Source: a virus. From it: a DNA stretch of 41,669 bases. Numbering within the stretch: position 1 is the stretch's first letter; the number at the start of each line of letters is the position of its first letter. Positions 24,815 through 32,738 of the stretch are shown one piece after another. The stretch spans positions 1-41,669 of the IMG/VR virus record IMGVR_UViG_3300022668_000017. One strand, given 5' to 3'. A program made the position numbers and the translations under genes. The notes beneath the pieces are model-generated. The model did not search any database. It had not been told where the DNA came from and was given only the letters and a program-made list of their open reading frames with translations.

Positions 24815-25462
24815 ATGAGTAAAGACAATTTAAAGCTTTGGGAATCCGTCGAAAAGACAAACCCAAAATACACTAAAGAAGCAAAAGTAGGAGGTAATAA
24901 AATTACTGCTATTTCTCCACAGTATCAAATACTTAATGCTACTGAACAATTTGGAAGCTATGGAAAAACATGGGGATTTAGAAATATAGAGTTAGATTAC
25001 TCAATAACTAACACACCAATAGTTTTAAAAGTAATGGACTACAAAACTAAAAAAATAGAAGATGTTAATACTGTTTTGGGTTTAGTTGGTTTTAAGGCTA
25101 CTTTCTTTTACCCTGAAGGAGAATTTGAAATAACAAACTCTATTAAAATGTTTACAGATAACAAGCATTCTAAAATAGATGATAACTATGCAAAGAAACT
25201 AGAAACAGACGCTTTAACAAAAGCATTGTCTAAACTAGGGTTTAATGCTGATATCTTCATGGGTAAATTTGACGATATAAGATACGTTAACGACATGAAA
25301 AAAGAGTTCGCAGAACCTGTAAAGAAAATAGATTATAAATCAAAACTAGAAGCATGTAAAACATTACAAGAATTAGCTACTGCTTGGAAAGCAATACCAG
25401 CAAGCACAGAAAAAGACAATTTAGAAACATTAAAAGAAACATTAAAATTAAAATTAAAGTAA
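24815..25462 (+). CDS. Single-strand annealing recombinase (Rad52/Sak-like) candidate
   Basis: 215 aa. KYTKEAKVGGNKITAIS, then NATEQFGSYGKTWGFRNIEL (about 43-62), and the later DALTKALSKLGFNADIFMGKFDD (about 132-154) form the pattern I associate with phage annealing proteins of the Rad52-like/Sak group: T-E-x-F-G-x-x-G-x-x-W-G, and D-A-x-x-K-A-x-x-x-L-G. These coat single strands and promote annealing, with no ATPase. The C-terminal 50 residues are a lysine-rich helix. The next gene is an SSB-like protein, a common pairing. Confidence 0.75.
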   Translation: MSKDNLKLWESVEKTNPKYTKEAKVGGNKITAISPQYQILNATEQFGSYGKTWGFRNIELDYSITNTPIVLKVMDYKTKKIEDVNTVLGLVGFKATFFYPEGEFEITNSIKMFTDNKHSKIDDNYAKKLETDALTKALSKLGFNADIFMGKFDDIRYVNDMKKEFAEPVKKIDYKSKLEACKTLQELATAWKAIPASTEKDNLETLKETLKLKLK

Positions 25463-25465
25463 ATT

Positions 25466-25828
25466 ATGGAATTAAACAACGTAGAAATTATTAAAATTGG
25501 AGAAGAAAAAGTTTACGGTGAAAGCTTTAGAAAATTAGAATTTGTAGTAAAAGATGATAGCGGAATGTATGAACAAGAAATACAGTTTAGCATTACTCAA
25601 GACAAAATAGATAACTTTGTACAGTATAATAAAGTAGGTCAAAGGGTAGATATCAAATTTAATTTAAACGGTCGCTCATGGCTTAAAGAAGGAGAACCTG
25701 AAGAGAATAGAAGATGGTTTAATGAGTTAAATGCTTGGTCTGTATTTAAAGCTGAAGGAGGTGAAGAAGCTACCGAATTAACTAGCGCGGATTTACCAGA
25801 CGAAGACCACGACGATTTACCGTTCTAG
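25466..25828 (+). CDS. DUF3127-like single-stranded DNA-binding protein
   Basis: 120 aa. An OB-fold-like beta barrel (1-95), with FRKLEFVVKDDSG, VGQRVDIKFNLNGRSWLKEG and WFNELNAWSVFKAE. This is the profile of DUF3127 proteins, proposed SSB equivalents in Bacteroidota. The end is an acidic tail, PDEDHDDLPF, equal in type to the C-terminal tip of bacterial SSB (DDDIPF) that recruits replication and repair enzymes. It lies 3 nt after the annealing protein. A strong terminator follows. Confidence 0.85.
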   Translation: MELNNVEIIKIGEEKVYGESFRKLEFVVKDDSGMYEQEIQFSITQDKIDNFVQYNKVGQRVDIKFNLNGRSWLKEGEPEENRRWFNELNAWSVFKAEGGEEATELTSADLPDEDHDDLPF

Positions 25829-25850
25829 TCTAAAGTAAACAACAATTTAA

Positions 25851-25879
25851 AACCCTTGTATTAATTTACAGGGGTTTTT
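25851..25879 (+). terminator. Intrinsic terminator, copy 1 of a second identical pair
   Basis: AACCCTTGTA pairs with TACAGGGGTT (one U-G pair), followed by T6. The 29 nt are identical to 29028-29056. It ends the first early operon. Confidence 0.88.
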
Positions 25880-25885
25880 TAGTTT

Positions 25886-26191
25886 TGTACAAAAGTGTAC
25901 AATTGTACAAAAGTGTACAACGCAAAGTGTACAATTAGAAAAACAACAAAGTCAATGATAGCAATGGTTATCAACGTAAAGTGTCTAAAAAAGTGTACAA
26001 TTGTACACTTGTACACTTAGAAAATTAAATATTTAAAAACATAAATTATAAAAATTATTTTTTTCAAAAGTGTACAATTGTACACTTTTTGTACACTTTC
26101 CTTTGTTAACCCCCATAAACACTACAAAGTTACTTTTTAAAAAGTGTACAATTAGTGTACAAAAGTGTACAATCGATTGTACAATTGTACA
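25886..26191. repeat. TGTACA iteron/operator array (candidate origin or control region)
   Basis: A gene-free 470-bp region (25829-26298) holds 16 copies of the palindrome TGTACA. They start at 25886, 25896, 25904, 25914, 25928; 25994, 26002, 26010; 26071, 26079, 26090; 26145, 26156, 26166, 26178 and 26186. Most sit in AAGTGTACAATTGTACACTT-like double palindromes, spaced 8 or 10-12 bp, in four clusters separated by 50-66 bp. The intervals between clusters are A+T-rich, apart from a CCCCC run. Such clustering is typical of iteron origins, partition sites or cooperative repressor operators. It is flanked by a terminator on the left and a promoter on the right. Confidence 0.85.
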
Positions 26192-26237
26192 CTTACAAAA
26201 ATAATCTAAAAAAAATCTACGTTAATTTGTAAATATA

Positions 26238-26269
26238 TTTGCACGGTATTAACAAAAACACTATCTTTG
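26238..26269 (+). promoter_or_regulatory. Promoter of the second early operon
   Basis: TTTG at 26238-26241 and TATCTTTG at 26262-26269, 20 nt apart, end 29 nt before the ATG at 26299. A second -7-like element TATATTTG (26234-26241) overlaps the -33. The promoter lies just downstream of the last TGTACA copies. Confidence 0.68.
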
Positions 26270-26298
26270 AAAAAAGTTTAACTAAAAACAATATAATT

Positions 26299-26517
26299 AT
26301 GACAAATAATTTATTAAACTGCATTACAGATGTAGAAAATAACAGCAGATTAAAAATGGAGGCGTTAAAAGAATTAAGAACTCTTTTAGAAAAATTAGAA
26401 TTAGGTATTGAGAGTATTAGTAAAGAAGACTCTGAATGGTCTTACACTTCCCAGTTAGAAGATATTAAAACCTCTTTAGAAAACGTAAAATTAGAAATAC
26501 ACCTAAAAACAATATAA
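26299..26517 (+). CDS. 72-aa helical protein
   Basis: The start is set at the ATG at 26299 (MTNNLLNCITDVE). A longer frame from a TTG at 26239 would begin inside the promoter. The product is all-helical and acidic, probably a coiled coil (LRTLLEKLELGIESIS, EDIKTSLENVKLEI). First gene of the second early operon. Unknown function. Confidence 0.62.
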   Translation: MTNNLLNCITDVENNSRLKMEALKELRTLLEKLELGIESISKEDSEWSYTSQLEDIKTSLENVKLEIHLKTI

Positions 26518-26519
26518 TT

Positions 26520-26864
26520 ATGGGAAAACCAACGATTGAAGAAGTAAGAGAACATTTTAAGAATGCTAAAATAGTTAGATGTGTACATGATAGTGAGTTA
26601 TTGAGTGATACTAAAAAAATATGTTTTTCAGGTCATTACTATTACGTAGGCGATAACACTACATTAGATGAATCTGATTACACCGTATTATGGAGTAGAT
26701 ATAAAGGGTACGCTGAAATAGTAGAATACAAAACAGAAGCTAAAGACGATTTGATATGTATTGATTTCGATATTTTCTTAGAATCAATTAACAAATCACA
26801 CAACAAGAAACAAGCTAAGAAGATTAAAAAACAAATGATTAAAAAACTATTAAAAGATATATAA
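26520..26864 (+). CDS. Paralogous FKNA-domain protein 3
   Basis: 114 aa. TIEEVREHFKNAKIVRCVHD, then HYYYVGDNTTLDESDYTVLWS and YKGYAEIVEYKTE match the 22675 protein closely. The tail after about residue 80 differs and ends in a lysine-rich helix (NKKQAKKIKKQMIKKLLK). A basic tail here, in place of the acidic or HTH tails of its paralogues, suggests different partners for one shared module. Function unknown. Confidence 0.72.
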   Translation: MGKPTIEEVREHFKNAKIVRCVHDSELLSDTKKICFSGHYYYVGDNTTLDESDYTVLWSRYKGYAEIVEYKTEAKDDLICIDFDIFLESINKSHNKKQAKKIKKQMIKKLLKDI

Positions 26865-26866
26865 TT

Positions 26867-27283
26867 ATGAAATTAGAAGTAAAACATTTAGCGCTTTATT
26901 TGCCTTATAGGTTAAAAGTTTTGGACGCTTCTTGTAAAAAATACCTAGTAGTTTGGTTCACTCCTAAAGGTCAAGAGAAATGTGTAAATATTGGTGATGT
27001 TTTCTTTGAGAAAACAAGTATTATAAAATCACAAAAATATAAACCAATACTAAGACCTTTAAGCGATTTAACAAAAGAAAATAAAGACGGTTTAAATTAC
27101 ATAGAGTGGCTTATTGAAACATATTACACTATAGGTGTTGAAAATCAAATAAACAGGATAGAAGAGGATTTAAGATGGTTAAGCCATTGTGACTATTTTT
27201 TAGTTCAACATTTAATTGAATGGCACTTCGACGTATTCGGACTTATAGAAAAAGGATTAGCAATTGATATAAATACTTTATAA
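26867..27283 (+). CDS. Widely conserved hypothetical phage protein (KPILRPLSDL family)
   Basis: 138 aa. MKLEVKHLALYLPYRLKV at the N terminus, KYKPILRPLSDLTKE in the middle (about 63-77) and LIEWHFDVFGLIEKGLAIDIN at the C terminus. I recognise this set as a common hypothetical protein in phages and prophages of Bacteroidota, where it usually lies in the replication or early region. No function is established that I know of. Confidence 0.8.
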   Translation: MKLEVKHLALYLPYRLKVLDASCKKYLVVWFTPKGQEKCVNIGDVFFEKTSIIKSQKYKPILRPLSDLTKENKDGLNYIEWLIETYYTIGVENQINRIEEDLRWLSHCDYFLVQHLIEWHFDVFGLIEKGLAIDINTL

Positions 27284-27285
27284 CC

Positions 27286-27642
27286 ATGAAAAAAATAACA
27301 TTTACATTAATACTATTATTGAGGTTTGCAGTAAACGCTCAAAACCACAAAGAAGCATTAAAGCTTAATTACAACAAATCTAATGGTGTATTTTCAAATA
27401 AAGATTATAAGTTACAGGCTGTTAGTTTTCATCACTTAGAAGATAAGCTATACTACAACGAAAGGGATTATATAAATAATGTTTATAATCCTAAGTCTAA
27501 AAAAGATATTTATATTAAAAAGTATATCTTTGTAATTAACTTAGCTAATAATAAAAAAGAATTGCTAGAGTACTGGGTAAGAGAAGATAACACTGTATTA
27601 GTATTATACTTTGAAATATCTAAACATAAAGAATTTATATAA
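27286..27642 (+). CDS. Secreted small protein
   Basis: 118 aa with a signal peptide (MKKITFTLILLLRFAVNA, cleavage before QNH). The mature part is basic, alpha/beta, with aromatic strands (YIKKYIFVINLANNKKEL, VLVLYFEIS). No cysteine pair or lipobox. Presumably periplasmic or exported. It is unusual in an early operon of cytosolic proteins, and may act on the host envelope. Confidence 0.65.
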   Translation: MKKITFTLILLLRFAVNAQNHKEALKLNYNKSNGVFSNKDYKLQAVSFHHLEDKLYYNERDYINNVYNPKSKKDIYIKKYIFVINLANNKKELLEYWVREDNTVLVLYFEISKHKEFI

Positions 27643-27661
27643 ACAATTGAAAGGTAAAAAC

Positions 27662-27811
27662 ATGGATATAATAATGCAAAACCTAGTAGATACACTTAAT
27701 AGAAGAATGATTAACGCTGAAAAGGACACAGAGTTTTTTTTAGAAGAATTAAATAATATAGGTTTATTTTTCAGTGAAGAGGGTAATTTTTGGTATTACG
27801 ATAATGAATAA
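27662..27811 (+). CDS. 49-aa acidic small protein
   Basis: Start chosen at the ATG at 27662 (MDIIMQNLVDTLNRRM), 19 nt after the preceding stop, rather than an overlapping upstream ATG at 27611. Helical first half, then EEGNFWYYDNE at the C terminus. Unknown. Confidence 0.55.
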   Translation: MDIIMQNLVDTLNRRMINAEKDTEFFLEELNNIGLFFSEEGNFWYYDNE

Positions 27812-27838
27812 AGAATTTAAACTATAAAAATAATAATT

Positions 27839-28303
27839 ATGAAAGTAACAAAACAAGATGTAATAGAGTATTTTAAAGATGCTAAGATTATAGAGGATAA
27901 ATACGGAGATATAGCGATTATAAAAGATGACTTTGAAAGTAGAATTTATAATGATTATGGGACTTTTTATCTTAAAATATCAGATGTAGAAAACTTTGAT
28001 ACAGACCTTATTCTATATAGTTTGCTTTATGATAGATACGCTCAAATAATAGAATACAAACAACAACCAACTAACATGGAAAAACTACTAACAGAAGTTA
28101 GAGACTTACTATTAGAAGAAAAACAAAACCGCGAGAAATTACAACCGTTAGGGATGACGTTAGCAGAAGCAGAGCAAACGTTTTACAAGTCGTACAGTGG
28201 TAACAGTCGCTTAAATATTACAAAGACCGCTAAATACTTGGGAGTAAGTAGAAATACGATTTATAAGTGGATTGAGTTGTATAACGAAAAAATTAGCGAG
28301 TAA
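27839..28303 (+). CDS. Paralogous FKDA-domain protein 4 with C-terminal helix-turn-helix
   Basis: 154 aa. Residues 1-78 are the shared module (TKQDVIEYFKDAKII, YGDIAIIKDDFESRIY, RYAQIIEYK). A coiled linker (80-105) leads to a helix-turn-helix at about 120-148, SRLNITKTAKYLGVSRNT followed by IYKWIE, of the Fis/MerR-excisionase type. This is the only copy with a recognisable DNA-binding tail, so it is a candidate regulator of the phage. The stop overlaps the next start (TAATGG at 28301-28306). Confidence 0.75.
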   Translation: MKVTKQDVIEYFKDAKIIEDKYGDIAIIKDDFESRIYNDYGTFYLKISDVENFDTDLILYSLLYDRYAQIIEYKQQPTNMEKLLTEVRDLLLEEKQNREKLQPLGMTLAEAEQTFYKSYSGNSRLNITKTAKYLGVSRNTIYKWIELYNEKISE

Positions 28304-28980
28304 TGGAGGTATATAATATTTTAAATTTATACGCTTGTTTAGGTGGTAACAGATGTAAATGGGATGAAGTAGCTGAAGAGTTAGGTATTAAAATAAAAGT
28401 AACTGCTGTAGAATTAGATTCAGAATTAGCAACACTTTACAAAGAGCGTTTTCCTAATGATAAAGTAATTATTACAGATGCTCATAAATTTTTATTGGAA
28501 AATTTCAAAGATTACGATTTTATTTGGACTTCTCCCCCTTGTCCTACGCATAGTAGATTAGCATTAACAAATAAAAACAGAGCTAAAACAAAATACCCAG
28601 ATATGAAATTATATCAAGAGGTTTTACTTCTTAAATATTATTTTACAGGTAAATATGTAGTTGAAAACGTGATACCTTTCTACGAACCTTTGATACCTGC
28701 AAAAAAAAGAGGTAGACATTTATATTGGACTAATTTTAATTTACCAAACATAGAAGAGCCTGTAAATGGAATCATAGGAAATGGTAAAAATAGAGTTGAA
28801 AAATTAAGCAGATTTCATAACTATGATTTTACTAAATACAAAGGAAGTCAGCCAAGGTGTAAAATCGCTTCTAATTTAGTTTTTTATGAAACAGGTAAAA
28901 CTATTTTAGAAACTGCACTTGGTATAATAAAGAAAAAAAATGAAAGACAAATAACCATATTTGATGAAATAAATAGATAA
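28303..28980 (+). CDS. DNA (cytosine-5) methyltransferase, short form
   Basis: 225 aa, shorter than the 300+ typical of the family. Motif I LNLYACLGGNR, motif II VELDSE (Glu38), motif III DAHKFL, motif IV SPPCPTHSR with catalytic Cys80, and motif VI VVENV (Glu121) are all present. The usual large target-recognition domain is reduced to roughly 60 residues (135-195). It should add 5-methylcytosine to phage DNA, protecting it from restriction or marking it. There is no cognate endonuclease nearby, so it acts as a solitary methylase. Confidence 0.9.
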   Translation: MEVYNILNLYACLGGNRCKWDEVAEELGIKIKVTAVELDSELATLYKERFPNDKVIITDAHKFLLENFKDYDFIWTSPPCPTHSRLALTNKNRAKTKYPDMKLYQEVLLLKYYFTGKYVVENVIPFYEPLIPAKKRGRHLYWTNFNLPNIEEPVNGIIGNGKNRVEKLSRFHNYDFTKYKGSQPRCKIASNLVFYETGKTILETALGIIKKKNERQITIFDEINR

Positions 28981-29243
28981 ACTATGATAGAATTATCAAA
29001 ATGTAATAGGCTTTTAGATGATTTATTAACCCTTGTATTAATTTACAGGGGTTTTTGCTTTTATAAAAGGAGTTATAAATTACCCGCTATACTCCCCCTT
29101 GAAAAACGATTCTTAATTTGAGGGGGGGGTGTCCTTGAAAATAAAATCCTTAACTACTGTTTTTATAAACCCTTTGATTATCAAGTAGTTACGAGCTAAA
29201 AACAGGAGCTAAAAAATTAAGGGTTAAAAAAACGAGTATTTTC
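28981..29243. other. Noncoding region upstream of the primase gene: structured, G-tract
   Basis: This part of the 388-bp gap between the methyltransferase and primase genes contains a terminator (29028-29056), then a C5 run (29094-29098) facing a G8 run (29122-29129). Two interleaved inverted repeats follow: AACTACT at 29152-29158 with AGTAGTT at 29184-29190, and CTGTTTTTA at 29157-29165 with TAAAAACAG at 29197-29205. A 45-codon ORF from 28984 runs through the terminator and was not accepted. Confidence 0.6.
29028..29056 (+). terminator. Intrinsic terminator, copy 2 of the second identical pair
   Basis: 29 nt identical to the terminator at 25851-25879, with T5 here. It ends the operon that carries the methyltransferase. 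Confidence 0.86.
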
Positions 29244-29274
29244 TTGGTTTATATTACCTTATTTTATACCTTTG
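29244..29274 (+). promoter_or_regulatory. Promoter of the primase operon
   Basis: TTG (29244-29246), 20 nt, TACCTTTG (29267-29274), a good Bacteroidota consensus. The predicted transcript begins near 29281 and carries a leader of about 88 nt to the ATG at 29369. Confidence 0.75.
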
Positions 29275-29285
29275 TCAAAGACGGT

Positions 29286-29356
29286 GTGGTAGCTGTAAAA
29301 AGAAATTTATAAGACCCTTGAAGGATGTGTTAAACTACCACCACTCCTTTGAGGGT
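29286..29356 (+). promoter_or_regulatory. Structured 5' leader of the primase gene (two interleaved stems)
   Basis: GTGGTAG (29286-29292) pairs with CTACCAC (29335-29341). ACCCTTGAAGGA (29314-29325), which lies in that loop, pairs with TCCTTTGAGGGT (29345-29356), 5+5 bp with a 2-nt internal mismatch. The order a-b-a'-b' allows a pseudoknot or two competing folds, ending 12 nt before the ATG. It may control translation or act as single-stranded DNA signal. Not a known class. Confidence 0.5.
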
Positions 29357-29368
29357 TTACTTTTTAAT

Positions 29369-31720
29369 ATGAGAAATAGAAACGTAAGTATTTTTAAAGA
29401 CTTGTACAAGTCTAAAGATGTTCCTTTCATTGTTCCTTTACATAAAGCTTTAGAAAGGATTAGAGTTGGTAAATCTAAAGATATTGTATTTAATGCTAGA
29501 GAAGCAAAAGATAAGACTGAATACAATAAAAGAAAGGCACGACTACCTTGTTTGGTTTTTGCTGGTGAGTTTAAAGATAGAACCACGAAAGGACTTGTAA
29601 ATCATTCAGGTTTAATGATTATTGATTTTGACGAGTTTCCTGACAAAGAAGAACTAAATAATAGTTTAGAAGAATTAAAGAAAAACAAACATATTATTAC
29701 TCTTTTTATTAGTCCTAGTGGCGAAGGTATAAAAGGATTAGTAAATATACCTCCATGCGATGCAATAGAGCATAGTAAGTATTTTAAGGCTTTTCAAAAA
29801 GAGTTTAACTATGATTACTTTGACCCTTCTAACTCCAATGTAGATAGAGTTTGTTTTGAATCTTATGACCCTAATATTTATATTAATTATGAAGCTGAAG
29901 TTTATAGTCCTGAGTTAAAAGATGAAGGTTTTAGTGTATCTGAAAAAATACCTTTAATACCTTTAAGTGATGAAAGCCAAATAGTAGAGAAAATAATGGC
30001 TTTTAGTTGGGGTAAAGATTTTGTAGCAGGTCAGCGCAATAATTATGTTTTTGATTTAGCAGGCGCTTTTTGTGAGTATGGAGTAAGTCAAACTTATGCA
30101 GAAAGTTATTTATATAATCATATAATTGCTGGCGAATGTAAAGACGAAAACGCTAAAATGAAAGCTATTAGAAGTGCATATAAGATGCGTTCTTTTAACT
30201 CTAAATACTTTGAAGACTATAATAAACTTAAATCTATAAAGAATGATTTAAAGAAAGGTAAAGATGTAGTAATTAAAAAGTATCATCTAGACGAAGATGT
30301 TTATAATGAAATCAAAGAAGAAACAGAGGCAGACGACTTTTGGTTTTATAACGATAAAGAACAGTTAAAAATATCACCTTTAAAATATAAGATATTCTTA
30401 GAAGGTAACGGATTTAAAAAGTATTATCCTGAAGGCGGTGACAAACCTACATTTGTAAAGATTGAATCTAATAAAGTAGAAGTTACTTCTATTGCAAGAA
30501 TTAAAGATTTTGTTTTAGATTACTTAGCAGAAGCAAAAGAGTATAAGGTTTGGGAGTATTGCGCAGGGTATCAAAACTTATTTAGTGAGCAGTTTTTATT
30601 AATGCTTGATAGTATCGAGTTAATGATGTTAAAAGACACGCTTAAAACGTCTTATATAGCTTTTAAGAATGGTATATTATCAATAACAAAAGATAATATT
30701 GAGTTAAAAGAATATATTGATATAGATGGTTATATTTGGAAATCGCATATATTGCCTAGAGATTGGAAACTAAACAAAGATTTTAAAAATGATTACTCTA
30801 ATTTCGTTAATAATATAGCTAATAAAGAGCCTTTACCGATAGAATGTTGTATAGGTTACTTATTATGTACTTATAAGAACCGAAGTAATAATAAAGCTAT
30901 TATATTAAATGATGAAATAATAACACAAAACCCTGAAGGTGGAACTGGTAAAGGTTTATTTATTCAAGGAGTTTCAAAGATTAGAAAAACACATATTATA
31001 GATGGTAAAAGTCATAATGATAAAGCTAGTTTTCAAAATCAATCCGTAAGTTTAGACGATAAGATTCTAGTGTTTGATGATATACCGAAAAACTTTAACT
31101 TTGAAAATCAATTTAGTTTAATTACTGAAGGTATTACTATTAGACACTTATATAAAGACCCTATAAAATTAAGTGTTAAAGATAGCCCTAAGATTGTATT
31201 AAGTACAAACTACGCTGTTAAAGGTGAGGGAAACAGCCATGACAGAAGGCGACACGAAATAGAGTTTGCACAGCATTACGGTAAGAATATGACACCGGAA
31301 GATGAGTTTGGAAGGCAATTATTCGATGAGTGGGACGAAGACGAATTTAATAAGTTTGATAATTATATGGTTAACTGTTTACAGTCTTATTTAAAAAACG
31401 GATTAGTAAAACAGAACTCTAAAAATATTAAACTAAGAAAGTTTATAGCAGAAACTTCTATGGAATTTTACGAATGGATTTCAGAAACTGCTAAAATACC
31501 TTTTAATAACAGAAACGATAAAAAAGTATATTACAATCAGTTTATAGAGGAGTATCCTGATTTTAAAAAATGGTTAAACCAAAGAACGTTTACTATTTGG
31601 ATTGAAAAGTATTGTAAATATATGGGTTATGGTTATGATAAAGGAAGTAGCAATGGTATGCAATGGTTTGAAATAATAAATAAAGACGCTCCAGAGCATG
31701 AGGACGAAATACCGTTTTAG
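29369..31720 (+). CDS. Primase-helicase: BT4734/VirE_N-like N-terminal domain plus SF3 helicase
   Basis: 783 aa from the ATG at 29369; a TTG at 29318 (800 aa) would place the start inside the leader hairpin. Residues 5-180 (NVSIFKDLYKSKDVPF, LMIIDFDEF, ISPSGEGIKGLV) are a BT4734-like primase-polymerase-type domain. Residues 210-275 look like a primase C-terminal helical unit. Residues 480-680 form an SF3/D5-type ATPase with Walker A NPEGGTGKG (about 521-529), Walker B LVFDDIP (Asp570/571) and the sensor/Arg segment STNYAVKGEGNSHDRRRHE. It probably synthesises primers and unwinds DNA. The C terminus EHEDEIPF looks like an SSB acidic tip. Confidence 0.9.
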   Translation: MRNRNVSIFKDLYKSKDVPFIVPLHKALERIRVGKSKDIVFNAREAKDKTEYNKRKARLPCLVFAGEFKDRTTKGLVNHSGLMIIDFDEFPDKEELNNSLEELKKNKHIITLFISPSGEGIKGLVNIPPCDAIEHSKYFKAFQKEFNYDYFDPSNSNVDRVCFESYDPNIYINYEAEVYSPELKDEGFSVSEKIPLIPLSDESQIVEKIMAFSWGKDFVAGQRNNYVFDLAGAFCEYGVSQTYAESYLYNHIIAGECKDENAKMKAIRSAYKMRSFNSKYFEDYNKLKSIKNDLKKGKDVVIKKYHLDEDVYNEIKEETEADDFWFYNDKEQLKISPLKYKIFLEGNGFKKYYPEGGDKPTFVKIESNKVEVTSIARIKDFVLDYLAEAKEYKVWEYCAGYQNLFSEQFLLMLDSIELMMLKDTLKTSYIAFKNGILSITKDNIELKEYIDIDGYIWKSHILPRDWKLNKDFKNDYSNFVNNIANKEPLPIECCIGYLLCTYKNRSNNKAIILNDEIITQNPEGGTGKGLFIQGVSKIRKTHIIDGKSHNDKASFQNQSVSLDDKILVFDDIPKNFNFENQFSLITEGITIRHLYKDPIKLSVKDSPKIVLSTNYAVKGEGNSHDRRRHEIEFAQHYGKNMTPEDEFGRQLFDEWDEDEFNKFDNYMVNCLQSYLKNGLVKQNSKNIKLRKFIAETSMEFYEWISETAKIPFNNRNDKKVYYNQFIEEYPDFKKWLNQRTFTIWIEKYCKYMGYGYDKGSSNGMQWFEIINKDAPEHEDEIPF

Positions 31721-31769: not shown

Positions 31770-32738
31770 ATGATTAAATTATTAAAAGGCGATTGCTTAA
31801 TTGAAAGCGATAAAATAGAAAGTGGTAGTGTTGATTTAATATTAACGGATTTACCCTATGGAACTGTAAAAGATATAAAAAACGTGAAGCATGGCATGAG
31901 CGGTAAATGCGAATGGGATGTTGTTATTGACACTGATAAAATAATGCAATTAGCAAACAGGATTTTACGAAAAAACGGTAAAATGATATTAACAGCACAA
32001 CAACCTTTTACAAATGAATTGATTAATAAAGCGTTACCAAACTTACCGTTTAATTATTCTATGATTTGGGAAAAAGACCACTTTGCAAACGCTTTAACTG
32101 CTAAAAAAGCACCTTTAAATTATTATGAAGATGTTTTAGTTTTTAGTAAGAACCACCCAAAACACGACAATACAGGAAATAACCCTGTAAGAGATTATTT
32201 AATACAGGAAAAAAAGAAAACAGGATTAACAAATAGACAATTAAATAATTTATTTAGTGATTACACAAATAAAAAAGGAAACAAAGACAGAAGTGTTTTA
32301 GAACATTATTGGGGCAAAGCTCAATTTACTTTTCCTACTAAAGATATTTACGAAAATGTATTGCAACCTACTGGTTTTTTTAATAAACCTTATGGTTATA
32401 TTGAGGAAATAGGTAAACCTTATAGATTGATGATTAATAAACATCTTAATGAATTAGCGCCAAGCATATTTAATTTATGGGAAGGTAAAAAATACAAAAG
32501 TAATATTTTAAAGTACAAAAAAGATTATGACGGACACCACCCAACACAAAAGCCTGTTTTATTGTTAGAAGATTTAATAAAAACTTTTAGTAATGAAAAT
32601 AATTTAGTGGTGGATTTAACTATGGGAAGCGGTTCAACAGGTGTGGCTTGTAAAAATACAAATCGTAATTTTATAGGTATTGAAATGAATGAGGATTATT
32701 TTAATATAGCTAAAAAGAGAATTAACGAAAACAAATAA
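31770..32738 (+). CDS. DNA N6-adenine/N4-cytosine methyltransferase, beta class
   Basis: 322 aa. The catalytic motif TDLPYG (DPPY type, about 26-31) precedes the AdoMet-binding motif DLTMGSGSTG (about 282-291), the permuted order of beta-class amino-methyltransferases. HHPTQKP (about 261-267) is motif X, typical of the group. A target-recognition insert fills about 120-240 (ENVLQPTGFFNKPYG, LWEGKKYKSNILK). It probably methylates A within a short sequence. Together with the C5 enzyme at 28303, the phage carries two solitary methylases. Confidence 0.92.
   Translation: MIKLLKGDCLIESDKIESGSVDLILTDLPYGTVKDIKNVKHGMSGKCEWDVVIDTDKIMQLANRILRKNGKMILTAQQPFTNELINKALPNLPFNYSMIWEKDHFANALTAKKAPLNYYEDVLVFSKNHPKHDNTGNNPVRDYLIQEKKKTGLTNRQLNNLFSDYTNKKGNKDRSVLEHYWGKAQFTFPTKDIYENVLQPTGFFNKPYGYIEEIGKPYRLMINKHLNELAPSIFNLWEGKKYKSNILKYKKDYDGHHPTQKPVLLLEDLIKTFSNENNLVVDLTMGSGSTGVACKNTNRNFIGIEMNEDYFNIAKKRINENK

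Follow-up and report, generated by a model that had tools for sequence, protein, structure and literature searches.

The window, that is, the whole stretch of DNA analysed, is an IMG/VR virus record of 41,669 bases in which head, packaging and lysis genes are present. Its replication and recombination genes resemble those of flavobacterial phages, and the virus is a phage of Flavobacterium-type bacteria. The features of the locus are as follows (+, plus strand).

25466..25828, +, single-strand DNA-binding protein (SSB; PHROG 4932) with the acidic tail DDLPF; adjoins the array on the left
25849..25878, +, intrinsic terminator following the SSB gene
25886..25933, no strand, iteron cluster I, 5 TGTACA
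25994..26015, no strand, iteron cluster II, 3 TGTACA
26016..26070, no strand, AT segment (55 bp, 91% AT), a candidate DNA-unwinding element by its presumed function
26071..26095, no strand, iteron cluster III, 3 TGTACA
26145..26191, no strand, iteron cluster IV, 5 TGTACA
26234..26241, +, TATATTTG, candidate −7 element of a Bacteroidetes promoter (TAnnTTTG), 43 bp beyond the right end of the array
29087..29135, +, C-rich/G-rich element (CTATACTCCCCC..AT..GGGGGGGG), situated among the iterons in many relatives; in the window it stands next to the primase gene and lacks GTGTAC iterons
29286..29358, +, pseudoknot-like leader RNA with interleaved stems (A-B-A'-B'), ahead of the primase gene
29369..31720, +, primase-helicase, proposed initiator (BT4734-like_N AEP, PriCT_1, DUF5906)
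31436..31693, +, C-terminal winged-helix domain, with its predicted recognition helix at aa 738-752 (LNQRTFTIWI from aa 736)

The window has two identical copies of a 29-bp terminator sequence, one at 25851-25879 before the array and the other at 29028-29056 before the C-rich element. Two DNA methyltransferase genes flank the primase gene (28303-28980 and 31770-32738; C5-type fragment, N6/N4-type). Rfam gave no match in 25400-29500.

As an earlier note on this DNA had reported, TGTACA occurs 16 times in about 300 bp, in four clusters within a region (25886-26191) that holds no convincing gene and starts just 3' of the terminator that follows the SSB gene. The window contains 27 copies in all, with only 11 in the remaining 41.4 kb, so that the motif is far from equally frequent elsewhere; equal frequency was an outcome that the note had named as speaking against its claim. 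In 300 simulated first-order Markov sequences, the maximum in any 306-bp window was 4 copies, and the probability of at least 16 in the array interval, taken from the rate outside the array, is about 10−31 (log10 P ∼ −31). The region is AT-rich, and one might think of chance, of an assembly artefact or of a simple tandem repeat devoid of function; this is contradicted by the sequence statistics, by irregular spacings and two orientations, and by the identity of the repeat with the motif predicted from the initiator (see below), and we consider it extremely improbable.

Read in their orientation, 16 of the 16 copies are TGTACAA, 13 are AGTGTACAA, and 11 continue onward to AATTGTA or nearly so. 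The true unit of the array is AAGTGTACAA, longer than the hexamer TGTACA. Successive TGTACA spacings are 10, 8, 10, 14 / 66 / 8, 8 / 61 / 8, 11 / 55 / 11, 10, 12, 8: the 8 or 10-12 bp announced in the note holds for most spacings within clusters, but 14 bp occurs as well. The 5-3-3-5 arrangement, with both orientations present, is roughly mirror-symmetric around 26042. Many short repeats (16 copies) beside an AT-rich segment (55 bp, 91% AT) are a first property expected of an iteron origin. Clustered palindromes had been put forward as a sign of an origin or operator; the array is real, but ACATGT, a control palindrome, likewise forms arrays in viral contigs, and therefore a palindrome array by itself is not diagnostic. 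A skew switch at 26 kb, another expectation of the note, is absent. GC skew is positive across the whole window and, with almost all genes in one orientation, it is uninformative on the origin and not decisive.

The TATATTTG word, whose promoter type is presumed and for which no clear −33 box was found, also lies downstream of the iterons in many relatives. Its position 43 bp to the right of the array would suit a transcriptional operator, at which the primase-helicase or a phage regulator would bind cooperatively and repress or activate this promoter. Two further points go in the same direction: an HTH_23 protein is encoded at 27839-28303, and toxin-antitoxin systems of the YefM-YoeB/Axe-Txe class have TGTACA palindromes as the units of their operators. 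However, those operators have few sites, whereas the window has 16, and the 306 bp with their 91% AT core exceed a usual operator. Moreover, the HTH_23 protein was found in no relative examined, and a Pfam scan of 30 window proteins detected neither YefM/Phd nor RHH nor any repressor family. We regard an operator as the main function of the array as unlikely; an additional role in repressing the nearby promoter is possible.

The proposed initiator is read from a first ATG at 29369, the longest ORF starting from a TTG at 29318. It unites in one chain an AEP primase, PriCT_1, an SF3-like helicase, for which DUF5906 is the sole basis of assignment, and a predicted C-terminal winged helix. The C-terminal domain (aa 690-783) was modelled as a winged helix with a pLDDT of ∼90; the helicase part of the full-length model was poor. 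Gln738, the residue that covaries with the repeats (see below), lies where the predicted recognition helix begins and is a candidate specificity residue. Structure comparison of the C-terminal domain gave winged helices throughout the matches, with the P4 origin-binding domain 1ka8 as a near-tied best match (Z 6.0, 2.6 A over 71 residues), a Z of 6 being within the range for unrelated winged helices. This weak likeness to the origin-binding domain of P4 alpha fits the role assigned to the protein, and proves little alone. Sequence searches against solved structures yielded no relevant match for the C-terminal domain (1ka8 was not found), and sub-threshold primase matches only for the whole protein. 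A second property expected of an iteron origin is the gene of an initiator nearby; here it lies 3.1 kb from the array, and its predicted winged helix is a candidate sequence-specific binder.

About 130 related genes on more than 100 contigs (IMG/VR) were compared overall. An alignment-based scan with the primase-helicase gave 80 loci, 39-65% identical, and their repeats were found by an unbiased scan for clustered 6-8-mers. In many of these loci, repeat arrays lie close to the gene, often in the noncoding gap immediately before it; CGTCAC x9 lies downstream. The repeated words are lineage-specific: TCGTCAC x9, TAGTGCA x6, GCAACAC x4, TACGATA, CCACATA x5, GTACAC x6 and others. These arrays flank either AT-rich DNA or a C-rich/G-rich element. 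To the left of the relatives' origins there is often a gene of PHROG 6706, of unknown function; its acidic tail alone is SSB-like, and the sequence gives no support for an SSB homologue. A search of viral contigs based on the SSB itself returned a single weak locus, and Flavobacterium phage 11b, which has the nearest SSB (52%), has no array after its SSB gene.

The repeats were then related to the C-terminal domain. All members whose C-terminal domain has a helix of the form [SN]Q[KR]xFTxW (the window, L262, L263, L265, L273 and L320) have GTGTAC clusters, whereas the 73 others never reach three copies. For L273, GTGTAC was predicted from the helix and then confirmed; L320, only 41% identical overall and 50% in the C-terminal domain, has six GTACAC. 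When further loci were gathered by means of the C-terminal domain, a class LTNKKFNIW appeared whose origins carry GTGTAC as well, often mixed with GTGTTGC. We counted covariation over 58 representatives of less than 92% identity, requiring at least two GTGTAC in the origin region. With Gln or Asn at helix position 3, a position picked after the first six loci were seen, GTGTAC was present in 8 of 10 (window included), against 0 of 48 with other residues (Fisher, 2×10−8). The strict count is 7 of 10, one of the two GTGTAC of L384 being inside a gene. Many members with Arg there carry GTGTTGC, TGTTTGC or TGTTGAC. L333 departs from the Gln/Asn pattern, having Gln at position 3 but CGTCAC repeats. 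On a tree made without the C-terminal domain, Gln/Asn arose about 5 times, and GTGTAC came along in 4. Phylogenetically independent pairs were at most 4 for, 0 against and 1 neutral (sign test, p 0.125), significance at this level being out of reach because there are only 4-5 switches.

This comparison indicates that the repeat sequence covaries with the predicted recognition helix of the initiator, and the initiator residue appears to change along with the word that it would recognise. The window helix, LNQRTFTIWI, has Gln at position 3; therefore GTGTAC is predicted, and this is the core of the window array. A third property expected of an iteron origin, a repeat matching its initiator, is provided by the covariation (8/10 versus 0/48), limited by the few independent switches. 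RHH, HTH and DnaA-like proteins, which the note had listed as possible binders, find no support: of the window proteins, the primase-helicase alone turned up in each of the 15 Gln/Asn-type loci tested and in every GTGTAC-type relative tested. The covariation also bears on the idea that the array belongs to a plasmid-like prophage as its partition site (centromere). Clustered palindromes can serve as centromeres, but this reading leaves the link with the primase helix unexplained, and no ParA or ParB family match was obtained among the window proteins scanned (PHROGs, Pfam); we give it next to no weight.

We conclude that the 306-bp array is probably an iteron-type replication origin served by the phage's own primase-helicase. 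Among the three candidates of the note (origin, operator and centromere), the origin is thus favoured by the relatives' iteron arrays and by the repeat/helix covariation. The conclusion draws on sequence comparison, namely on the array itself, on the lineage-specific iteron arrays at related initiator genes and on the helix/repeat covariation. The C-terminal winged helix of the primase-helicase would bind the AAGTGTACAA units, which face both ways and are clustered either side of the AT-rich segment. Subunits would then form helicase rings, possibly one per side, which may melt the segment at 26016-26070; the protein would thereby be placed to unwind and prime both strands, giving a bidirectional start.

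Binding of an initiator to origin repeats is established for P4 alpha and SaPI Rep (PMC4234260, PMC7581432). P4 alpha combines a primase of the TOPRIM type, a helicase and a C-terminal repeat-binding winged helix in one protein (PMC4234260). The window protein similarly unites a primase, an SF3-like helicase and a predicted C-terminal winged helix, the one aligned above to 1ka8, but its primase is of the AEP type and the repeat sequence is also different. We propose that it works like P4 alpha, and because of its AEP rather than TOPRIM primase we do not class it as a P4 alpha homologue. SaPI Rep and Cch2, from staphylococcal elements, are self-loading initiator helicases whose C-terminal domain binds short iterons beside their own gene (PMC7581432). 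The window protein would likewise be an initiator helicase with a C-terminal iteron-binding domain; however, the helicase and primase domain make-up is unlike, and the SaPI Rep/Cch2 origins are downstream of rep, whereas those of the window and most relatives are upstream. A pRN1-type origin would be a long stem-loop of about 100 bp that follows the replication gene, unlike the upstream iterons of many relatives. The replication proteins pRN1 ORF904 and that of Bordetella phage BIP-1 have an AEP primase, an SF3 helicase and a winged helix in one chain, as the window protein does by prediction, and for this type of protein stem-loop rather than iteron recognition has been proposed (PMC4234260). 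In the present family, in contrast, iterons are seen to covary with the winged helix. It qualifies the suggestion of PMC4234260, since lineage-specific iterons are common in it and covary with the DNA-binding domain.

Our literature search found no description of iterons for this phage family, although one may still exist. Origins are unidentified for most uncultured phages; here the origin can be deduced from sequence across more than 100 contigs, along with its initiator and an apparent specificity residue, which provides a switch (Gln/Asn versus Arg) that is easy to test.

The layout in the window is peculiar. The GTGTAC repeats are 3.2-3.5 kb upstream of the primase gene, with none directly before the gene; in the other Gln/Asn-type loci with GTGTAC repeats, these are within ∼620 bp upstream of it. 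The window has two regions 3 kb apart, the primase-proximal one, without GTGTAC, comprising the C-rich element and the leader RNA, both of which usually border the iterons. Conserved elements of this C-rich/G-rich kind, built around an AT-rich centre (TATACCCCCTTT...GGGGGG), are seen upstream of the primase gene in the window, L262, L288, L304 and L355, and are possibly a hairpin or a priming site. As the array stands 3.1 kb away from the primase gene as well as from the C-rich element, the simplest account would be that an ancestral region containing both iterons and element was split, or duplicated in part, on entry of the genes at 26299-28980. In L253 (4629-4730) and L254 (5190-5280), ATCGACAC repeats occur in opposite orientations, and there too the array is remote from a related primase gene, lying 3.0-3.5 kb upstream.

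In phage P4, the crr site lies ∼4.5 kb from ori and is bound by alpha. By analogy, the window array could be an auxiliary cis site bound by the primase-helicase and acting by DNA looping, with replication starting at the C-rich region (29087-29135). The distance of 3.1 kb would agree with it, and so would the placement of the C-rich region as in relatives, where it sits among the iterons and before the primase gene. But in the window this region has no GTGTAC and the repeats flanking it look degenerate; moreover, L314, L320 and L333 have their iterons around AT-rich DNA without any C-rich element (in L314, TCGTCAC repeats flank the AT-rich segment as in the window), so the window array looks complete alone. 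A purely auxiliary array keeps a small share of our belief. We also considered, as a possible though doubtful joint reading, that a widespread AEP primase-helicase family has a readable code, in which position 3 would select the iteron (GTGTAC if it is Gln/Asn, GTGTTGC/TGTTTGC/TGTTGAC if it is Arg) and origins could be predicted from the protein, and that the window origin is split into the 16-site array and the C-rich element 3 kb off, the two cooperating by looping.

Interleaved A-B-A'-B' leader stems are also found in many relatives (e.g. L255, L292, L320, L355), where they follow the origin region and precede the start of the primase gene. The sequences of their arms vary by lineage while complementarity is kept, as for a pseudoknot or attenuator-like structure, and 28 of 57 loci scored above their own 20 shuffles.

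TGTACA was finally followed outside the family. In a genome collection, the matches listed were mostly coding or chromosomal hairpin repeats. Rumen Bacteroidales genomes (for example contigs L134, L144, L162, L135 and L137) contain many dispersed hairpins made up of TGTACAGTATATGTACAGTA-like repeats, a chromosomal interspersed repeat. Among the matches listed in unrelated viral contigs, TGTACA arrays with DUF927 or TOTE-type primase neighbours looked like a shared motif but were not used as evidence, as the ACATGT control also gives arrays. Noncoding TGTACA arrays are found in four such contigs, L125 (1914-2181), L077 (2983-3295), L121 (5538-5820) and L127 (5900-6138), those of L125 and L077 directly 3' of a DUF927 (Cch-like) helicase gene; these four are possibly independent iteron origins.
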